From the NCBI GenBank assembly GCA_010906965.1, contig JAAFHB010000004.1, positions 1 to 64,000 of the forward strand: a DNA stretch of 64,000 bases, written 5' to 3'. Positions 9,129 through 44,767 of the stretch are shown in pieces. Under the pieces are notes generated by a model, which ran no database searches, was not told the origin of the DNA, and saw only the letters and a program-made list of their open reading frames with translations. The stretch's first letter is position 1. Each line of letters starts with the position of its first letter. The position numbers and the translations under genes are program-made. The DNA is from Mariniphaga sp. GTDB lineage: Bacteria; Bacteroidota; Bacteroidia; Bacteroidales; Prolixibacteraceae.

Positions 9129-9887
9129 ATGACCGGGTTACTTTCTCCATTTTCGCTGTCAACTGTCGATTGGGTACTGATTGTGTTTTGCGCCATTCTC
9201 ATTGGAATGTCCAAAACCGGTGTCCCGGGAGTGTCAATGATCGTTGTTCCAACGCTTGCCTTGATATTCGGCGGTAAAGCGTCGACGGGTGTTTTGCTTC
9301 CAATACTAATTATTGCTGATGTATTTGCGGTTGTCTATTACCACCGTCATGCGAAGTGGAAACACCTTGTGCGTGCACTCCCATGGGCATTTGCTGGTCT
9401 GTTTATTGCACTCTGGATTGGAAATCTTGTTAATGATGAGCAGTTTAAAAGGATAATCGCCATAACTGTTTTCGTGAGCATTGCGTTAATGATCTGGAAA
9501 GACTACTTTTATAAGAAAGAGTTTACGCCTGATAAATGGTGGTTTGCGGCTTTGATGGGCGTCGTGGGTGGGTTTGCAACCATGATCGGGAATGTAGCAG
9601 GACCTATTTTTGCGATTTATTTGTTAGCAATGCATTTAAACAAGAAAAGCTTTATAGGAACCACTGCCTGGTTTTTCTTCATTATCAATTTATCTAAATT
9701 TCCGCTTCAGGCACTCGTTTGGAAGAACATCAATCTGAACACACTCACCGTTGATATTATGGTTTTACCTGCCATTGCCTTTGGAGCATGGCTGGGAGTT
9801 TTTTTCGTGAAACTGATTCCTGAAAAAGCGTATAAATGGTTTGTAATTGTCATCACTGTTTTATCAGCGTTTTTGATTCTGATCTGA
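9129..9887 (+). CDS. TauE/SafE family sulfite-exporter-like permease
   Basis: 252 aa multi-TM; 'GMSKTGVPG', 'GFATMIGNVAGPIFAIYLLAMHLNKKSFIGTTAWFFFIIN'. Confidence 0.85.
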   Translation: MTGLLSPFSLSTVDWVLIVFCAILIGMSKTGVPGVSMIVVPTLALIFGGKASTGVLLPILIIADVFAVVYYHRHAKWKHLVRALPWAFAGLFIALWIGNLVNDEQFKRIIAITVFVSIALMIWKDYFYKKEFTPDKWWFAALMGVVGGFATMIGNVAGPIFAIYLLAMHLNKKSFIGTTAWFFFIINLSKFPLQALVWKNINLNTLTVDIMVLPAIAFGAWLGVFFVKLIPEKAYKWFVIVITVLSAFLILI

Positions 9888-10082
9888 ATGCGTTGATTTT
9901 TGATCTTTTTGTATGCTTATTTAATTGAATATGAAACAAATGATTAAAAATGACAATCAGTATTTATCAAGTAGGGTTCTGCATTTACTCAAATTATTAT
10001 AACTTTAGCCCGTGCCTTGGTTCGGAGTTTTCCAATGATCGATTGAATCAGGCTGTTTAAAGACCCGGTATTTAAAGAAAAA

Positions 10083-11321
10083 ATGAAAACGATGATATTA
10101 AGCAAAAAGCAAAGATTGATGATCTTGATTCCAGCTGGAATACTTGTCATTTTTGTCCTGATTTTTATTTTACGCAGGATTATCCCAAAGGCAATAAAAA
10201 TAAAAGATTGTATTACGCTTAATGTTGAGCAGGGTAATGTATATGAACCAATCGTTGCGACTGGTACGGTTGAAGCAGAAAACGAAGTGCTGATTCGAAG
10301 TCCTTATTCAAGTATTGTGAAACAGATTATTAAAGAGCCAGGTGCCCGTGTTCTTAAAGGGGATGTTATTCTCGTGATGGAAGATGAGATGATCAAGGAA
10401 GAAATAGATAAACTAAATGATCAGCTTGAACTAAAGCGCAATACCTTGGAAAAGAATAAGCTGAACGAATTTAGCACCAATGTTGATTTGAATTACAGTG
10501 AAGAGGTTAAGAAATTGAATATTACTTCTTTGAAATCACAACTTTCAGACGAAGAGCAACTTTTGGAGGTAGGTGGGATATCTCCTGCTAAAATCGTAAA
10601 GACAAAGCAGGAGATTGCGCTTGCTGAAAAAGACCTCGTGATGCTGAAACAAAAAAATTCAATTCGTCTGAAGCAATTAAAGGCGGAGGAACAGGGATTA
10701 AATCTTGGCATTAAAATTCAGGAGAAAGAATTGGGGGATAAAATCCATATACTGGACAAGATGCGATTGACAGCTCCTTCAAATGGAATCATTCTGTCTG
10801 TATCGAATAAAGTGGGGGAAAAGATTGAAAAGGATAATATATTGATCCGGATGTCTGATCTTTCGACTTTTAAAATTGCGGGATCAGTAGATGATAAACT
10901 TGCTGATTATATTAAAACCGGTAAAAGGGTTTATGTTGTAATCGATTCTGAAAGGCTTGCCGGAAATATTGGGAATGTGACACCCATGATTGAAAATAGC
11001 AAAATCCAGTTCAACGTCCATCTTGAAGAAAAAAATAATCCAAAGCTTATTTCCAATCAAAATTTAGTTTTGTGGGTTGTTGGAAATGAAGCAGAGAATA
11101 CCTTAAGGATTAGAAATTTAAACCTTTTTAGTAAAGAGGTTCCCAATGTTTTGTATGTTTTAAAAAATGGGGAAGCAATTCGTCGTGAAATAATAACAGG
11201 AATCAAAAATCCCGACTATATTCAAGTGCTGTCGGGGCTCGAGGCTGGAGAAAAGGTTATAATTCCAAAACAGGGAATGTCGGCATTCCGCAATTCCAGT
11301 AGTGTTGTAATAAACAATTAA
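10083..11321 (+). CDS. HlyD/MacA-type periplasmic adaptor subunit
   Basis: N-terminal TM, 'ATGTVEAENEVLIRSPYSSIVKQIIKEPGARVLKGDVIL' lipoyl half-motif, coiled coil, 'RLTAPSNGIILSV'. Confidence 0.85.
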   Translation: MKTMILSKKQRLMILIPAGILVIFVLIFILRRIIPKAIKIKDCITLNVEQGNVYEPIVATGTVEAENEVLIRSPYSSIVKQIIKEPGARVLKGDVILVMEDEMIKEEIDKLNDQLELKRNTLEKNKLNEFSTNVDLNYSEEVKKLNITSLKSQLSDEEQLLEVGGISPAKIVKTKQEIALAEKDLVMLKQKNSIRLKQLKAEEQGLNLGIKIQEKELGDKIHILDKMRLTAPSNGIILSVSNKVGEKIEKDNILIRMSDLSTFKIAGSVDDKLADYIKTGKRVYVVIDSERLAGNIGNVTPMIENSKIQFNVHLEEKNNPKLISNQNLVLWVVGNEAENTLRIRNLNLFSKEVPNVLYVLKNGEAIRREIITGIKNPDYIQVLSGLEAGEKVIIPKQGMSAFRNSSSVVINN

Positions 11322-11325
11322 GTTA

Positions 11326-12849
11326 ATGAGTAAAAATCTATATATAAGTGTTTTAAATATTTTTCTTCTCTGTTTTTTTGTCAATGTTTTGAAGGCTCAG
11401 GAGAAATTTGCCGGAGAACCGGCAAAAATAAAAATGAACCTTAGTCTTCAGGATGTTGTCGACTTATCAATTGCGCAATCTTCAGCCGTGAAATACGTTC
11501 AGAACACGAATGTCAATTATTTCTGGCGCTGGAAAAACTTCAGGAAAACATTCCTTCCTAATCTTGTTATGTCCGGAACGTTACCCAGTTACAACCAATC
11601 AACGGTACCTGTAACCCAACCTGACGGAAGTATCGAGTTTAAAGCTGTCTCCAATCTGCTGACATCTGCGAACCTAAGTCTTAATCAGTCTATACCGCTG
11701 ACTGGAACATCTATTTATGCTTCTACATCAGCCAGCAGGGTTCAGGATAATTATAAGAAGCATACAACCTTTTCCGGTAATCCGATCTCTTTTGGCTTTT
11801 ACCAGCCAATTTTTGCCTATAACTGGATGAAATGGTCTAAAAAAACAGAGCCGCTGATTTATAACGAGTCGCAAAAGAATTTTATACAGTCGATTGAAGA
11901 AATAGCCTACACGGCTACCACCCGTTTTTTTAATTACCTGCGGATTCAGACTAATTTTAAACTTGCTGAAAGTGCATTAAAAAACAGTAACGACAATTTA
12001 CGCATTGCGCAAACCAAGCAAAAACTTGGTCAAATTTCTGAGAACGATTTCTCCAGGATTGAACTATCGGTTCTGAACGCTCAAAAGGCGTTAAATTCGG
12101 CTGAAATGCAACTAAAAAACTCTGATTTTGAACTTAAATCGTATATTGGCCTCGATCAATATCAGGAAATAGAGTTGAAAATGCCATTAAATATAACCCT
12201 ATTCGATATCGATTCAAAAAAGGCACTAATGGAAGCAAAAACCAATCGGCCTGAACCAGTAAACTTCGAAAGAAGGTTAATTAATGCAGACAGGGATTTG
12301 ACGCAGGCTAAACGCGGAACTGGATTAAGTGCTACTTTATCTGGTAGTTATGGCCTTTCGAATAGTGGTGAATCACTTCCGGGAATCTACCAGGATCCAC
12401 TCAAATCGCAGGTTCTGCAATTGACCATGAGTGTTCCGATATTAGACTGGGGACGTGCCGCTTCAACAGTGAAGATGGCCGAGGCACAACGCGATCTCGC
12501 TCAATTTGATGTTCAAAAAGCCAAAGAAGATTTTGATAGAAGTGTTATTGTTCAGGTAGAACAGTTTGGTCTTTTAAAGGATCAGTTGAAGACTGCCAAG
12601 GAAGCTGACCGTGTTGCCGAAAACGGGTATCGTATTGCACTGAAACGGTTTCAAAATGGCGAAATTAGCATTACTGATCTTAATATTGCCCTTTCGGAAC
12701 GTGAAACAGCCAAACGCGATTATATCGGTTCACTTGCAACCTACTGGCTTGCTTATTATAATTTGCGGATTTTGACGCTTTACGATTTCGAAACCGATCA
12801 AAAGATTAATTACGAAAATCCAATGCTCTCATCTGAAAATGGAGGATGA
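11326..12849 (+). CDS. TolC-family outer membrane efflux protein
   Basis: Signal peptide, duplicated OEP-like repeats 'RIAQTKQKLGQISENDFSRIELSVLNAQ' and 'RIALKRFQNGEISITDLNIALSERETAKRDY'. Confidence 0.85.
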   Translation: MSKNLYISVLNIFLLCFFVNVLKAQEKFAGEPAKIKMNLSLQDVVDLSIAQSSAVKYVQNTNVNYFWRWKNFRKTFLPNLVMSGTLPSYNQSTVPVTQPDGSIEFKAVSNLLTSANLSLNQSIPLTGTSIYASTSASRVQDNYKKHTTFSGNPISFGFYQPIFAYNWMKWSKKTEPLIYNESQKNFIQSIEEIAYTATTRFFNYLRIQTNFKLAESALKNSNDNLRIAQTKQKLGQISENDFSRIELSVLNAQKALNSAEMQLKNSDFELKSYIGLDQYQEIELKMPLNITLFDIDSKKALMEAKTNRPEPVNFERRLINADRDLTQAKRGTGLSATLSGSYGLSNSGESLPGIYQDPLKSQVLQLTMSVPILDWGRAASTVKMAEAQRDLAQFDVQKAKEDFDRSVIVQVEQFGLLKDQLKTAKEADRVAENGYRIALKRFQNGEISITDLNIALSERETAKRDYIGSLATYWLAYYNLRILTLYDFETDQKINYENPMLSSENGG

Positions 12850-40857: not shown

Positions 40858-41250
40858 AGATTCAATTTTTTAAATGATGTGTTTATGAAATGTTTTATGC
40901 GTTCCTGAAAGTCAAAGCTAATAAATTTTAAAATACCAACATTAAAACTACTATTAGTAACTGAACTAAATGAGATTTTGTTTGAAAAAAATCGAAGAAT
41001 TTCAGGAACCCAAATCAGGTTGTATTTGAAACCTCCAAACAAAAGCAGTTCGAATATAAAAGTGTCCTTGTTGATGGATTTCACCAATAGCTGTAAGTTG
41101 TTCCCGATCTGAGCAATATTCATTAGGCGCTTGTTTGTTCAGTAAACGGGTCTGCAGTCCGGTCGCGAAAGTGCATCCGGATTTAAAGATCGCAAGATAA
41201 GCAATTATGTTTTATAATACAATATGTTTGAAAAGGTATTGGGGTATGGG

Positions 41251-41413
41251 ATTTTCCTGCATTCTGCAAATACTAAAAGATTGGAGGTAAGAGGGATCAA
41301 ATCAGTTGTTGGCAGAATGCAGAATTGATGAGACCATTTACCTTTAAAAAAGATACTGGAAATGGTATCTGCAAATTCCCTTACCTGTTGCCCGCGGATG
41401 GGATATCCGGGTT
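41251..41413. repeat. Dispersed direct repeat, copy A
   Basis: Shares ATTTTCCTGC, TCAAATCAGTTGTT, ACCTTTAAAAAAGATACTGGAAATGG (26/26), CGGATGGGATATCCGGG with 42838-42997. Confidence 0.85.
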
Positions 41414-41496
41414 AACGAGGACTAATCATATCGCTATTTTGCTTGTTTTTAATACTTCACCACTTTAAAGCCCAATCTTATTCGGCTGTTGCACTA

Positions 41497-41765
41497 CGTA
41501 AATACCATGATGCACATCGTAAAAGATTCGTGACACATCGTAAGAGCAATAATGCAACCTGTGATTTGTTGTTTGCACTTCGTATGAGCAATAATGCAAC
41601 GCGTAATTTGTTGTTTACACATCGTAAGAGCAATAATGCAACGCGTAATTTGTTGTTTACACATCGTAAGAGCAATAATGCAACGCGTAATTTGTTGCTT
41701 AAACATCGTAAGAGCAATAATGCAACGCTGAATTTGGTATTTACACAGCATAAAAGCTTAAATAC
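41497..41765. repeat. 42-bp tandem repeat built from two 21-bp half-units
   Basis: Copies of CGTAAGAGCAATAATGCAACG-CGTAATTTGTTGTTTACACAT start at 41539, 41581, 41623, 41665 and 41707; degenerate units on both sides. Confidence 0.95.
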
Positions 41766-41942
41766 ATTGTGTTAATAGCTGGTTACATGTGTATTAAAGA
41801 TATGATTTTTTAGAAGAAAATTAATTTATCGAAATTTCGACTAATTATAAAAATATTTCAAAAAAACCTGTAACCATTTAAGAACAATCCTCGTAGACAC
41901 AATAAATTCTAAACCAAATTTATTAATTAAAAAAAACAGAAT

Positions 41943-42626
41943 ATGGAAGCAAGAGGTAGAACATTTTGGGAAATGGAAAAAGAAGCTGTCTCCTATGTAC
42001 TGAAAAACGAAAGCGTATGGTCGCATTTGGCAGTTATTGTCACTAACGTAACCTTACTCGAACAGAATGAGCGGGATTTGGATGCTGCCTATAAAGCTCA
42101 GGACGCTAGTGATCCTGGTGGATATACCGACCAAAAGAACATGATGTTAAACTTATTTTACCACAAAATTTATAAGCTTAGTTGTAAGCTCTCCTTTTAT
42201 GGTAAAAATGTTGGCGACAAAATTTTACTCAATGATGTTAATATTGCCGAAAGCTCTTTTAATAAAGTGACAGAAAAAGAAGCGTTAATCCAATGCAATA
42301 CTATTATTAAACGGGGAAATGAATACCTCAGCAGAACTGCAGAATATGGCGTTACTGCAGATGGACTTAAATCACTGGGATCCGAACTTGCCATTTTGGA
42401 GCAAATGAAGCCAACTATCGGCGTGATCACTAACGACCACAAGAGTGCCACGCGATCGATTAAAGATATAATTTCGGAAGCCCGCATTCAACTTGACAAA
42501 CTGGATGATGCATTCGAAGGAATGCTCGATGATGATGATTTTATCGATGGTTGGTTTGCAGTACGTAAAATCAAAGGACGTCATAAACCTAAAGGGCCGA
42601 TTACTACAAAACCGGCCTCGGAATAA
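41943..42626 (+). CDS. Hypothetical protein, predicted alpha-helical, acidic segment and basic tail
   Basis: 227-aa ORF with ATG, A-rich leader and downstream terminator; no recognised family motif. Confidence 0.75.
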   Translation: MEARGRTFWEMEKEAVSYVLKNESVWSHLAVIVTNVTLLEQNERDLDAAYKAQDASDPGGYTDQKNMMLNLFYHKIYKLSCKLSFYGKNVGDKILLNDVNIAESSFNKVTEKEALIQCNTIIKRGNEYLSRTAEYGVTADGLKSLGSELAILEQMKPTIGVITNDHKSATRSIKDIISEARIQLDKLDDAFEGMLDDDDFIDGWFAVRKIKGRHKPKGPITTKPASE

Positions 42627-42657
42627 TTTTCGAAACGGAAGTTTGAATTAAATAAAA

Positions 42658-42694
42658 AAAGGTGCTGGCAGATATTTTAATCTCCGGCACCTTT
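42658..42694 (+). terminator. Hairpin terminator after the 227-aa ORF
   Basis: AAAGGTGCTGG / CCGGCACCTTT (one G-T pair). Confidence 0.7.
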
Positions 42695-42837
42695 CTGTAT
42701 AAAGAGGGTTTATTAATACTTTCGTTATCTCAAAAAAAGGTCAGGCTTACTAACGGAGTTTGATTGCTGATTATGATTTTCATATACAGAGAAGGCGAAC
42801 CAAAAAAAATAATTTGAAGGAGGATGGAGTGATGTAG

Positions 42838-42997
42838 ATTTTCCTGCCTCATACAAACTAAAAGTAGGAAGGAAACTGGATTCAAATCAGTTGTTTGAGA
42901 AATACCGAATGGATCAGACCGGTACCTTTAAAAAAGATACTGGAAATGGGAATAGTAAATTCCCTTGTCTGTTGCCCCCGGATGGGATATCCGGGGG
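42838..42997. repeat. Dispersed direct repeat, copy B (contains hairpins)
   Basis: Same blocks as copy A; contains GGGAATagtaaATTCCC and CCCCCGGATgggatATCCGGGGG. Confidence 0.85.
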
Positions 42998-43375: not shown

Positions 43376-44767
43376 TTATTTATTATTTTCAATTGCAAAA
43401 TGTGTTGAAATTTCCCTATATGGAAATGCATAATATGCAAACTCTGCTAAAAAGAATTCAGAAAGATTCAGTTTAGAATAATTATAATGACTAATTACAT
43501 GTTCTACGATTTCACGATTTACACTATCGCCTGCCAAGGCAATGATTGCAGCGGCGGCAAGAGGATTAGTCATATATGTCCGTTCATATAGTTTTCGCTC
43601 ACCCAACTTTTCTTTATTTCCCATTGAAGCAAGCTTTGCTGCGTCAGATTGCGTTTTTTGCGTGAACCATGTCGGATAGCCCTCCCGCCAATTTGAATGT
43701 CCAAATTTTTTTGTGTCATTATTGTTAAAGGTTTTATATGCTTCAATTACCTCCAGTGCATTAGTAACATTTTGTTCTATTCCGATACGATATGAGGCCT
43801 TAATTTTCTCATCATTTTCCATCGCGGCAAGATAAACTATTGTAGCCTGATTTTTGACATAAATCCACAATTGACTGTCGAAGTGTTTATTTTGAAATAT
43901 TACGCTGTCTATTCGAATACCGGCAGCACAAATATCTATCCGCGTTTTATTTAATTCTGAAGGTTTTTCAACCGACCCTCGGGGATATTCGAATAGTGCC
44001 GTTTGATATCGTTCCAGCCATATGGGATCTTGAAACAATTGGTACATCATTCGCAGTAAAAATAGATATGAAGTAACTTCAAGGTAATTATTTGATTTAA
44101 GATCTCCACGAAATTCACTTTTGAAACATCCATCGCAAGGAAGTTTCCAGTCTAAAGCGTTTAATGCGGATGTCACCTCCCTTAGTTTGTTCATTACAAT
44201 TTTGCGATGTTGAGGCGTTGGAATATCGCTTTTAAGATAACTGTATAATCCAAGATACCATGGGATTGTCTGGTCAACAGATCCCAATGGATAATGGCAT
44301 TGCCCATCTGTTCCTACACCTCGTGCAATAAAACCAGCCACATCTGAAACCGATGCGCATTTTAATAAACCATCGGCCAAACGTCTGGCTTTCTCATCGT
44401 CTATTTTGTCACCACTTCTGCGAGCCCTTTCACACGCAGCAGATAAATACAAACCTGTAAAAAAAGGACCATTCTCGATAGGACTCCACCAGCCGACAGC
44501 ATTAGGTCTACCCAAAACGCAATCTTCAGGTGTTGGCGTTTCACCAACAAAATCATGGATTATTCCATACTTGTCAATGAATTTTTTCCAGAGTACGGTA
44601 TTTGCCTGTTCTACTGTATAGGAAATATGTGTTTGAGCACCAGCAAACCATGCAGACATCATTATCGCTGAGAATACCGCCATTGTTCTAAAAATGCTAC
44701 GATGAAATTTGATTCTTATTTTTTGATTTCTCGAATTGAGTCGGAAATATTTTGAGTTGATATTCAT
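43376..44767 (-). CDS. Uncharacterised secreted protein of a polysaccharide utilisation locus, possibly (alpha/alpha) toroid
   Basis: 463 aa with signal peptide ending 'AWFAGAQ'; helical repeats rich in W/Y/H; same strand and directly downstream of susD. Confidence 0.75.
   Translation of the reverse strand: MNINSKYFRLNSRNQKIRIKFHRSIFRTMAVFSAIMMSAWFAGAQTHISYTVEQANTVLWKKFIDKYGIIHDFVGETPTPEDCVLGRPNAVGWWSPIENGPFFTGLYLSAACERARRSGDKIDDEKARRLADGLLKCASVSDVAGFIARGVGTDGQCHYPLGSVDQTIPWYLGLYSYLKSDIPTPQHRKIVMNKLREVTSALNALDWKLPCDGCFKSEFRGDLKSNNYLEVTSYLFLLRMMYQLFQDPIWLERYQTALFEYPRGSVEKPSELNKTRIDICAAGIRIDSVIFQNKHFDSQLWIYVKNQATIVYLAAMENDEKIKASYRIGIEQNVTNALEVIEAYKTFNNNDTKKFGHSNWREGYPTWFTQKTQSDAAKLASMGNKEKLGERKLYERTYMTNPLAAAAIIALAGDSVNREIVEHVISHYNYSKLNLSEFFLAEFAYYAFPYREISTHFAIENNK

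Follow-up and report, generated by a model that had tools for sequence, protein, structure and literature searches.

The 64,000-nt window examined here, a term that covers the whole stretch of DNA analysed (Mariniphaga sp., GCA_010906965.1, contig JAAFHB010000004.1), contains a tandem array and a protein-coding gene lying between two direct repeats. The question that this locus raises is where the genetic unit ends, at the direct repeats or at the array and the gene, and what the array may be for. A previous sequence-only reading had proposed the repeat-bracketed segment as a candidate uncharacterised module, which proved right for the array plus the gene and wrong for the bracketed segment. 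The real unit is the array together with the 227-aa gene, and it is one of several in this genome. The features of the locus are the following:

41250..41411, + strand, direct repeat copy 1, judged to be outside the module
41533..41747, + strand, 42-bp tandem array of 5.1 copies (Tandem Repeats Finder), with degenerate units on both sides
41748..41942, + strand, gap between array and gene, the presumed promoter location
41943..42626, + strand, 227-aa gene (ORF call), belonging to an unnamed multicopy Bacteroidota family
42658..42694, + strand, inverted repeat 3′ of the gene and possible terminator (11-bp stem, 15-nt loop, read from the sequence)
42837..42997, + strand, direct repeat copy 2 (two terminal hairpins), judged to be outside the module

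The source genome is a 509-contig draft; among named organisms, metagenome assemblies of Mariniphaga and other Prolixibacteraceae come closest to it. Carbohydrate-use genes were found on both sides of the locus, in agreement with its description as lying between two glycan-utilisation clusters. In particular, the left neighbours were GH127, alpha-L-fucosidase, esterase and sugar-isomerase-like genes, and the right neighbours were SusD, FecR and a SusC-like ORF. The module is followed, before the SusCD genes, by an ORF (43376-44767) for a 463-aa protein that looks secreted and gave no Pfam match, with relatives in one same-genus genome only, where three copies were present. The gene had also been credited with its own terminator; the hairpin at 42658-42694 is present, but it is followed by only a short T run and was not picked up by a consensus terminator scan. 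Moreover, no Rfam family reached the gathering threshold over the locus or the whole window.

The 42-bp tandem array was recovered as previously described, with 90% matches between its copies, and degenerate further units extended it to about 41489-41787. Taken as 21-bp half-units, it showed a core T.CA...CGTAA with eight columns kept in nearly every half-unit, followed by a variable spacer. The best internal lag was 21, although the half-period of this array was not significant when considered alone (p = 0.13). A CRISPR array was discarded, as the units run head-to-tail and match one another at about 90% from end to end, with no unique spacers. Furthermore, no strong inverted pair closely bracketing the array was found.

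A multicopy gene family linked to upstream arrays

The 227-aa ORF had been regarded as an orphan, and indeed it matched no Pfam or NCBIfam family (including PF19775, DUF6261), but it belongs to a multicopy family of the Bacteroidota. Five copies were found in its own genome by a single-sequence search and seven by a profile search, one of which (C129) was interrupted by a stop. The family appeared in 41 of the 295 genomes of the order that were sampled, as well as in other classes of the phylum, with paralogues in non-syntenic places. Its short members have about 227 aa, whereas the long ones reach about 310 aa and carry a carboxypeptidase-regulatory-like beta domain at the C-terminus. The AlphaFold2 model of the 227-aa protein was all-helical (mean pLDDT 88, pTM 0.60), and its fold gave no match at E ≤ 0.001 in the PDB or in a viral library, DNA-binding proteins included. 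The protein is acidic (pI 5.7) and has no known DNA-binding domain. PADLOC gave one weak match, in one relative only. Local duplications of the family gene were also observed, namely L011 with L019 (G014:C114) and L023 with L031 (G008:C81), some of the copies being truncated.

To establish the association between gene and array, arrays scoring at least 100 within 1 kb of the gene were counted, with units at multiples of 20-22 bp. Across all sets, 66 of 122 family genes had an array upstream and 4 of 115 had one downstream. The first set accounted for 53 of 99 genes with an upstream array, against three with a downstream one, and the other orders and classes of the phylum gave 13/22 and 0, respectively. 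All seven family genes examined in the own genome had an adjacent array (five upstream and two downstream), compared to 8/179 upstream and 2/179 downstream for the control ORFs, a set that still includes family members. Similarly, six of the eight family genes of the closed genome G229 had an upstream array and none a downstream one, versus 22 and 22 of 173 control ORFs. At the threshold used, about 45% of the family genes had no detectable array. The pairing is thus not exclusive, but the enrichment is strong and has a direction. The two downstream arrays of the own genome belonged to two of the most divergent of its seven family genes, and a divergent subgroup with the array downstream was observed (L026, L027 and L083, corresponding to G008:C132, G000:C95 and G000:C202).

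According to Tandem Repeats Finder, a period of about 21 bp underlay the upstream array of most distinct family genes, and the unit sequence differed from array to array. Every paralogue locus carried a private unit sequence, its length being kept at 42 (2x21) bp. For proteins more than 50% identical, the units agreed on the same strand only (mean of 0.53 vs. 0.45 on the opposite strand), and for proteins below 50% identity the agreement was at chance. One cross-species pair, with proteins 82% identical, had identical units in 5.7 and 6.7 copies. Gene and array are inherited together in a fixed orientation, with units that diverge fast.

Arrays were also found away from these genes. An evenly spaced 400-kb sample of G229 (L142-L161) had 29 arrays scoring at least 70, about one per 14 kb; nearly all their units were near multiples of 21, and many lay between ordinary genes. 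The own-genome sample comprised 513 kb, including the window, C30 and C432, three stretches picked because family genes lie on them. Over the remaining roughly 410 kb, 21-bp-type arrays scoring at least 100 appeared at five loci. Two of these were close to contig ends, and the others adjoined a DUF6261 gene, a 204-aa protein without Pfam match and ordinary genes, one each. In addition, small proteins without a clear Pfam match were seen beside 21-/42-bp-type arrays at L187:5041-5655, L150:3757-4380, L149:19010-19495 and L155:13721-14212 (the unit of the L155 array being 109), some of them possibly with an Ig/fn3-like C-terminus; these are possible additional linked families. Separately, a CRISPR-like array with the repeat GTTTCAATTCCAATATGGTGCGATTAAGG was noted at L169:728-1942 (G000:C8), where a large ORF on the other strand (9331-11949) may be a candidate cas gene.

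No report of a linkage between gene and array was found in the literature, the search covering open-licence papers only. Tandem repeats between genes with units of about 21-22 bp have, we presume, been noted before in Bacteroidetes, and the arrays by themselves may not be new.

Array geometry in two gene families

The geometry of the family arrays was largely uniform, with 42 as the best lag in 58 out of 63 arrays and significant head-to-tail 21-bp half-sites in 80% of 55 units. In many of them, the columns shared by the half-sites formed a core followed by a variable spacer. Some units were not multiples of three (62, 83, 43 and 44 bp), and neither open frames nor folding as structured RNA exceeded the level of shuffled units. 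Thus, neither codons nor hairpins account for the unit spacing.

DUF6261 (PF19775) genes were met beside arrays in the background samples and were then searched for directly. Like the 227-aa family, they are multicopy orphan genes of the Bacteroidota that tend to be preceded by a tandem array (48/68 upstream and 1/65 downstream), but homology between the two families could not be demonstrated (HHalign probability of 14%) and the arrays were built differently. Among 44 DUF6261 arrays, 19 had 41-bp units and 21 had 42-bp units. Half-sites of 21 bp appeared in 7% of the units of this family and dyad symmetry in 29%. Restricting the comparison to the genera that hold both families, half-sites were found in 16 of 27 arrays of the 227-aa family and in none of the 21 of DUF6261 (p = 6e-8), and the ratio of 42-bp to 41-bp units was 24:0 and 10:11, respectively (p = 3e-5). 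Hence, array geometry depends on the adjoining gene family and not only on the genome, as observed in samples of genomes. Since this difference occurs within the same genera, a genome-wide copying mechanism is not the sole cause. Nevertheless, the choice between 41 and 42 bp did not follow the DUF6261 protein tree beyond chance (28 of 300 free shuffles were as low, and 96 of 300 when shuffling within genomes), which limits how finely the dependence of geometry on the gene can be drawn.

Possible roles of the arrays

The position of the arrays was considered with respect to the putative promoters. In the first set, arrays ended a median of 251 bp before the start codon, and promoter-like matches (TTG-N17-23-TAnnTTTG) were found in the last 200 bp of 13 out of 104 family genes against 1.6 expected, which probably places the array outside the transcript. 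An ECF-like motif (TGTAACC-N17-CGTA) was also detected at about 41869-41900, a weak signal that recurred in L005 and L022 only (3/104 family genes).

Phased binding sites are the best explanation for the two-turn spacing, the position upstream of the promoter and the geometry set by the family. This layout leads us to infer that a protein binds the array, that this protein is the encoded one and that the binding may have some regulatory effect. The array would act in cis as a run of putative protein-binding sites two DNA turns (21 bp) apart, and its reader would most likely be the product of the neighbouring gene in the form of an oligomer, as this would explain both the private sequences and the family-specific geometry. 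The bound protein would lie along one face of the helix, and its binding may control its own gene or build a local nucleoprotein complex. As gene and array are passed on together, the array would homogenise and drift quickly, leaving each paralogue with a private unit sequence. We favour this reading of the array as helically phased sites, most likely bound by the neighbour's product, but tentatively and at slightly short of an even chance. Against it stand the acidic protein with neither a Pfam or NCBIfam family nor a DNA-binding fold match, the family genes without an array, the many arrays beside other genes (especially in G229), the 41/42 choice that does not follow the DUF6261 protein tree beyond chance and the half-period of the window array that is not significant alone.

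In another reading, the arrays would provide phased sites for a factor acting in trans and encoded elsewhere, for instance a nucleoid protein or a regulator common to them, and the orphan genes would be its clients instead of its source. An acidic protein with no known DNA-binding domain is consistent with such a factor, as are the solitary arrays beside ordinary genes and a layout common to several unrelated gene families. However, a single factor recognizing a single sequence is hard to reconcile with array sequences that are private and with a geometry that differs by family in the same genera, and we consider this alternative unlikely.

Alternatively, the arrays could be selfish or neutral satellite DNA tolerated beside dispensable orphan genes, which would agree with their frequency away from these genes (as in the G229 sample) and with the patchy distribution of the gene families. 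Nonetheless, the strong upstream-only bias in both families and their distinct phasing within shared genera argue against satellite DNA, making it quite improbable. It is similarly doubtful that the array works as a variable-number switch, in which the promoter would be tuned by the number of units, without a dedicated partner that binds them. Both the upstream position and the change from 5.7 to 6.7 copies of an identical unit between close relatives point to such a switch, but arrays arising by slippage or neutrally need neither keep 42 in 58 of 63 cases nor track the neighbouring family.

Two known systems were compared with the array and its gene. Plasmid iterons are direct repeats of about 21 bp located upstream of a gene whose protein binds them, and theirs is the layout that the module most resembles among the systems met, with direct repeats two turns apart upstream of a gene. 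In contrast to iterons, the module is chromosomal and multicopy, with no replication-initiator domain and no plasmid relatives. An iteron/Rep replicon was thus rejected, given the lack of any Pfam, NCBIfam or fold match to an initiator and of any plasmid or phage relative, together with the location among chromosomal genes. Bacterial minisatellites, for their part, are mostly regarded as markers for typing or as sites of slippage. The nearest published element found was BrickBuilt of Porphyromonas gingivalis, an intergenic minisatellite-containing MITE with many copies near promoters, which consists of 23-nt units of one common sequence with a leader, a tail and small inverted-repeat ends (PMC4596501). 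Both are intergenic tandem arrays from Bacteroidales genomes, with a spacing of about two DNA turns; however, the abstract on BrickBuilt names no linked gene (PMC4596501), and here the 42-bp units are private and an orphan gene is linked to them. A MITE of this type was discarded for the window array, whose unit is 42 bp and not 23 nt, is particular to its locus and has no inverted-repeat ends around it.

In this phylum, which is abundant in gut and sediment, the unit length is kept to two DNA turns and depends on the adjoining orphan gene. If the encoded proteins read the arrays, hundreds of genes of unknown function would gain a testable role, and the pairs of paralogue and array would constitute a natural experiment in the evolution of protein-DNA specificity. 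More broadly, private 'address' modules might form a large class in the Bacteroidota, made up of orphan gene families in which each product recognizes its own helically phased array. The geometry would be fixed by the family, as head-to-tail 21-bp sites or as 41-42-bp units that are often dyadic, and the sequence by the paralogue; this generalization is conceivable though somewhat unlikely, and if true it would represent an undescribed and fast-evolving system of protein-DNA recognition.

The flanking direct repeats

The existence of two diverged repeats of ~160 bp in the same orientation was confirmed. They aligned on the same strand over 162 columns with 79% identity (E = 8.7e-32, the whole own genome being searched), and chance is excluded for them as well as for the array. 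The identical block reported within them is real, its length being 27/27 nt instead of 26 (TACCTTTAAAAAAGATACTGGAAATGG, at 41339 and 42923), and the end CGGATGGGATATCCGGG is common to both copies, as had been read. Copy 2 terminates in two hairpins, GGGAAT..ATTCCC and CCCCCGGAT..ATCCGGGGG. The suggestion of a structured-RNA pair found weak support in the fold z-scores (about -2 for each copy), but neither copy matched an Rfam family.

In the own genome, only one further partial copy was found (50 nt of the 3′ end), giving three places in total, and similar repeat ends were present in two same-genus genomes. The part common to other genomes was the hairpin pair, GGGAAT..ATTCCC and then CCGGAT..ATATCCGG, followed by GGGAG. 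Copies of this pair elsewhere adjoined genes of other kinds, including an RHS-like ORF and AAA-ATPase-like ORFs (names read from the sequence). No viral contig contained the repeat core. With three places in the own genome and partial copies elsewhere, a transposon family was rejected.

Regarding the family, any repeat common to both flanks was found at 7 of the 92 loci with enough flank (window locus included), and its sequence was different every time. For control mid-sized ORFs with 1-kb flanks, the counts were 4/179 in the own genome, the window locus being one of the four, and 15/173 in another Bacteroidales genome. Sharing a repeat between its two 1-kb flanks is therefore not rare for a mid-sized gene, and direct repeats as module ends showed no enrichment above control ORFs. 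At the syntenic site, the one near-identical neighbour gene (94% at the protein level) was found on a contig that ends 41 bp past the gene.

A non-autonomous mobile cassette between the direct repeats, as the sequence-only reading had suggested, is very improbable despite its same-orientation ends and the non-syntenic paralogues, since identical repeats would be required at the ends of every copy and other gene copies lack them, the repeat's end occurs without the gene, and no inverted ends at the bracketed segment, no transposase ORF between the repeats (none had been read there either) and no plasmid or phage copies of the module were found. That reading had itself named two findings that would speak against it, and both were largely observed: the gene occurs elsewhere without the repeats, and the 3′ hairpin half of the repeats recurs away from the gene in the own and related genomes. 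Because other family loci are without them and their hairpin ends occur away from the gene, the direct repeats do not belong to the module; they are unrelated intergenic repeats, incidental to it. REP-like elements are short palindromic intergenic repeats, and the hairpin ends of the flanking repeats resemble a low-copy palindromic intergenic repeat of several genomes, differing from REP-like elements in having few copies per genome.
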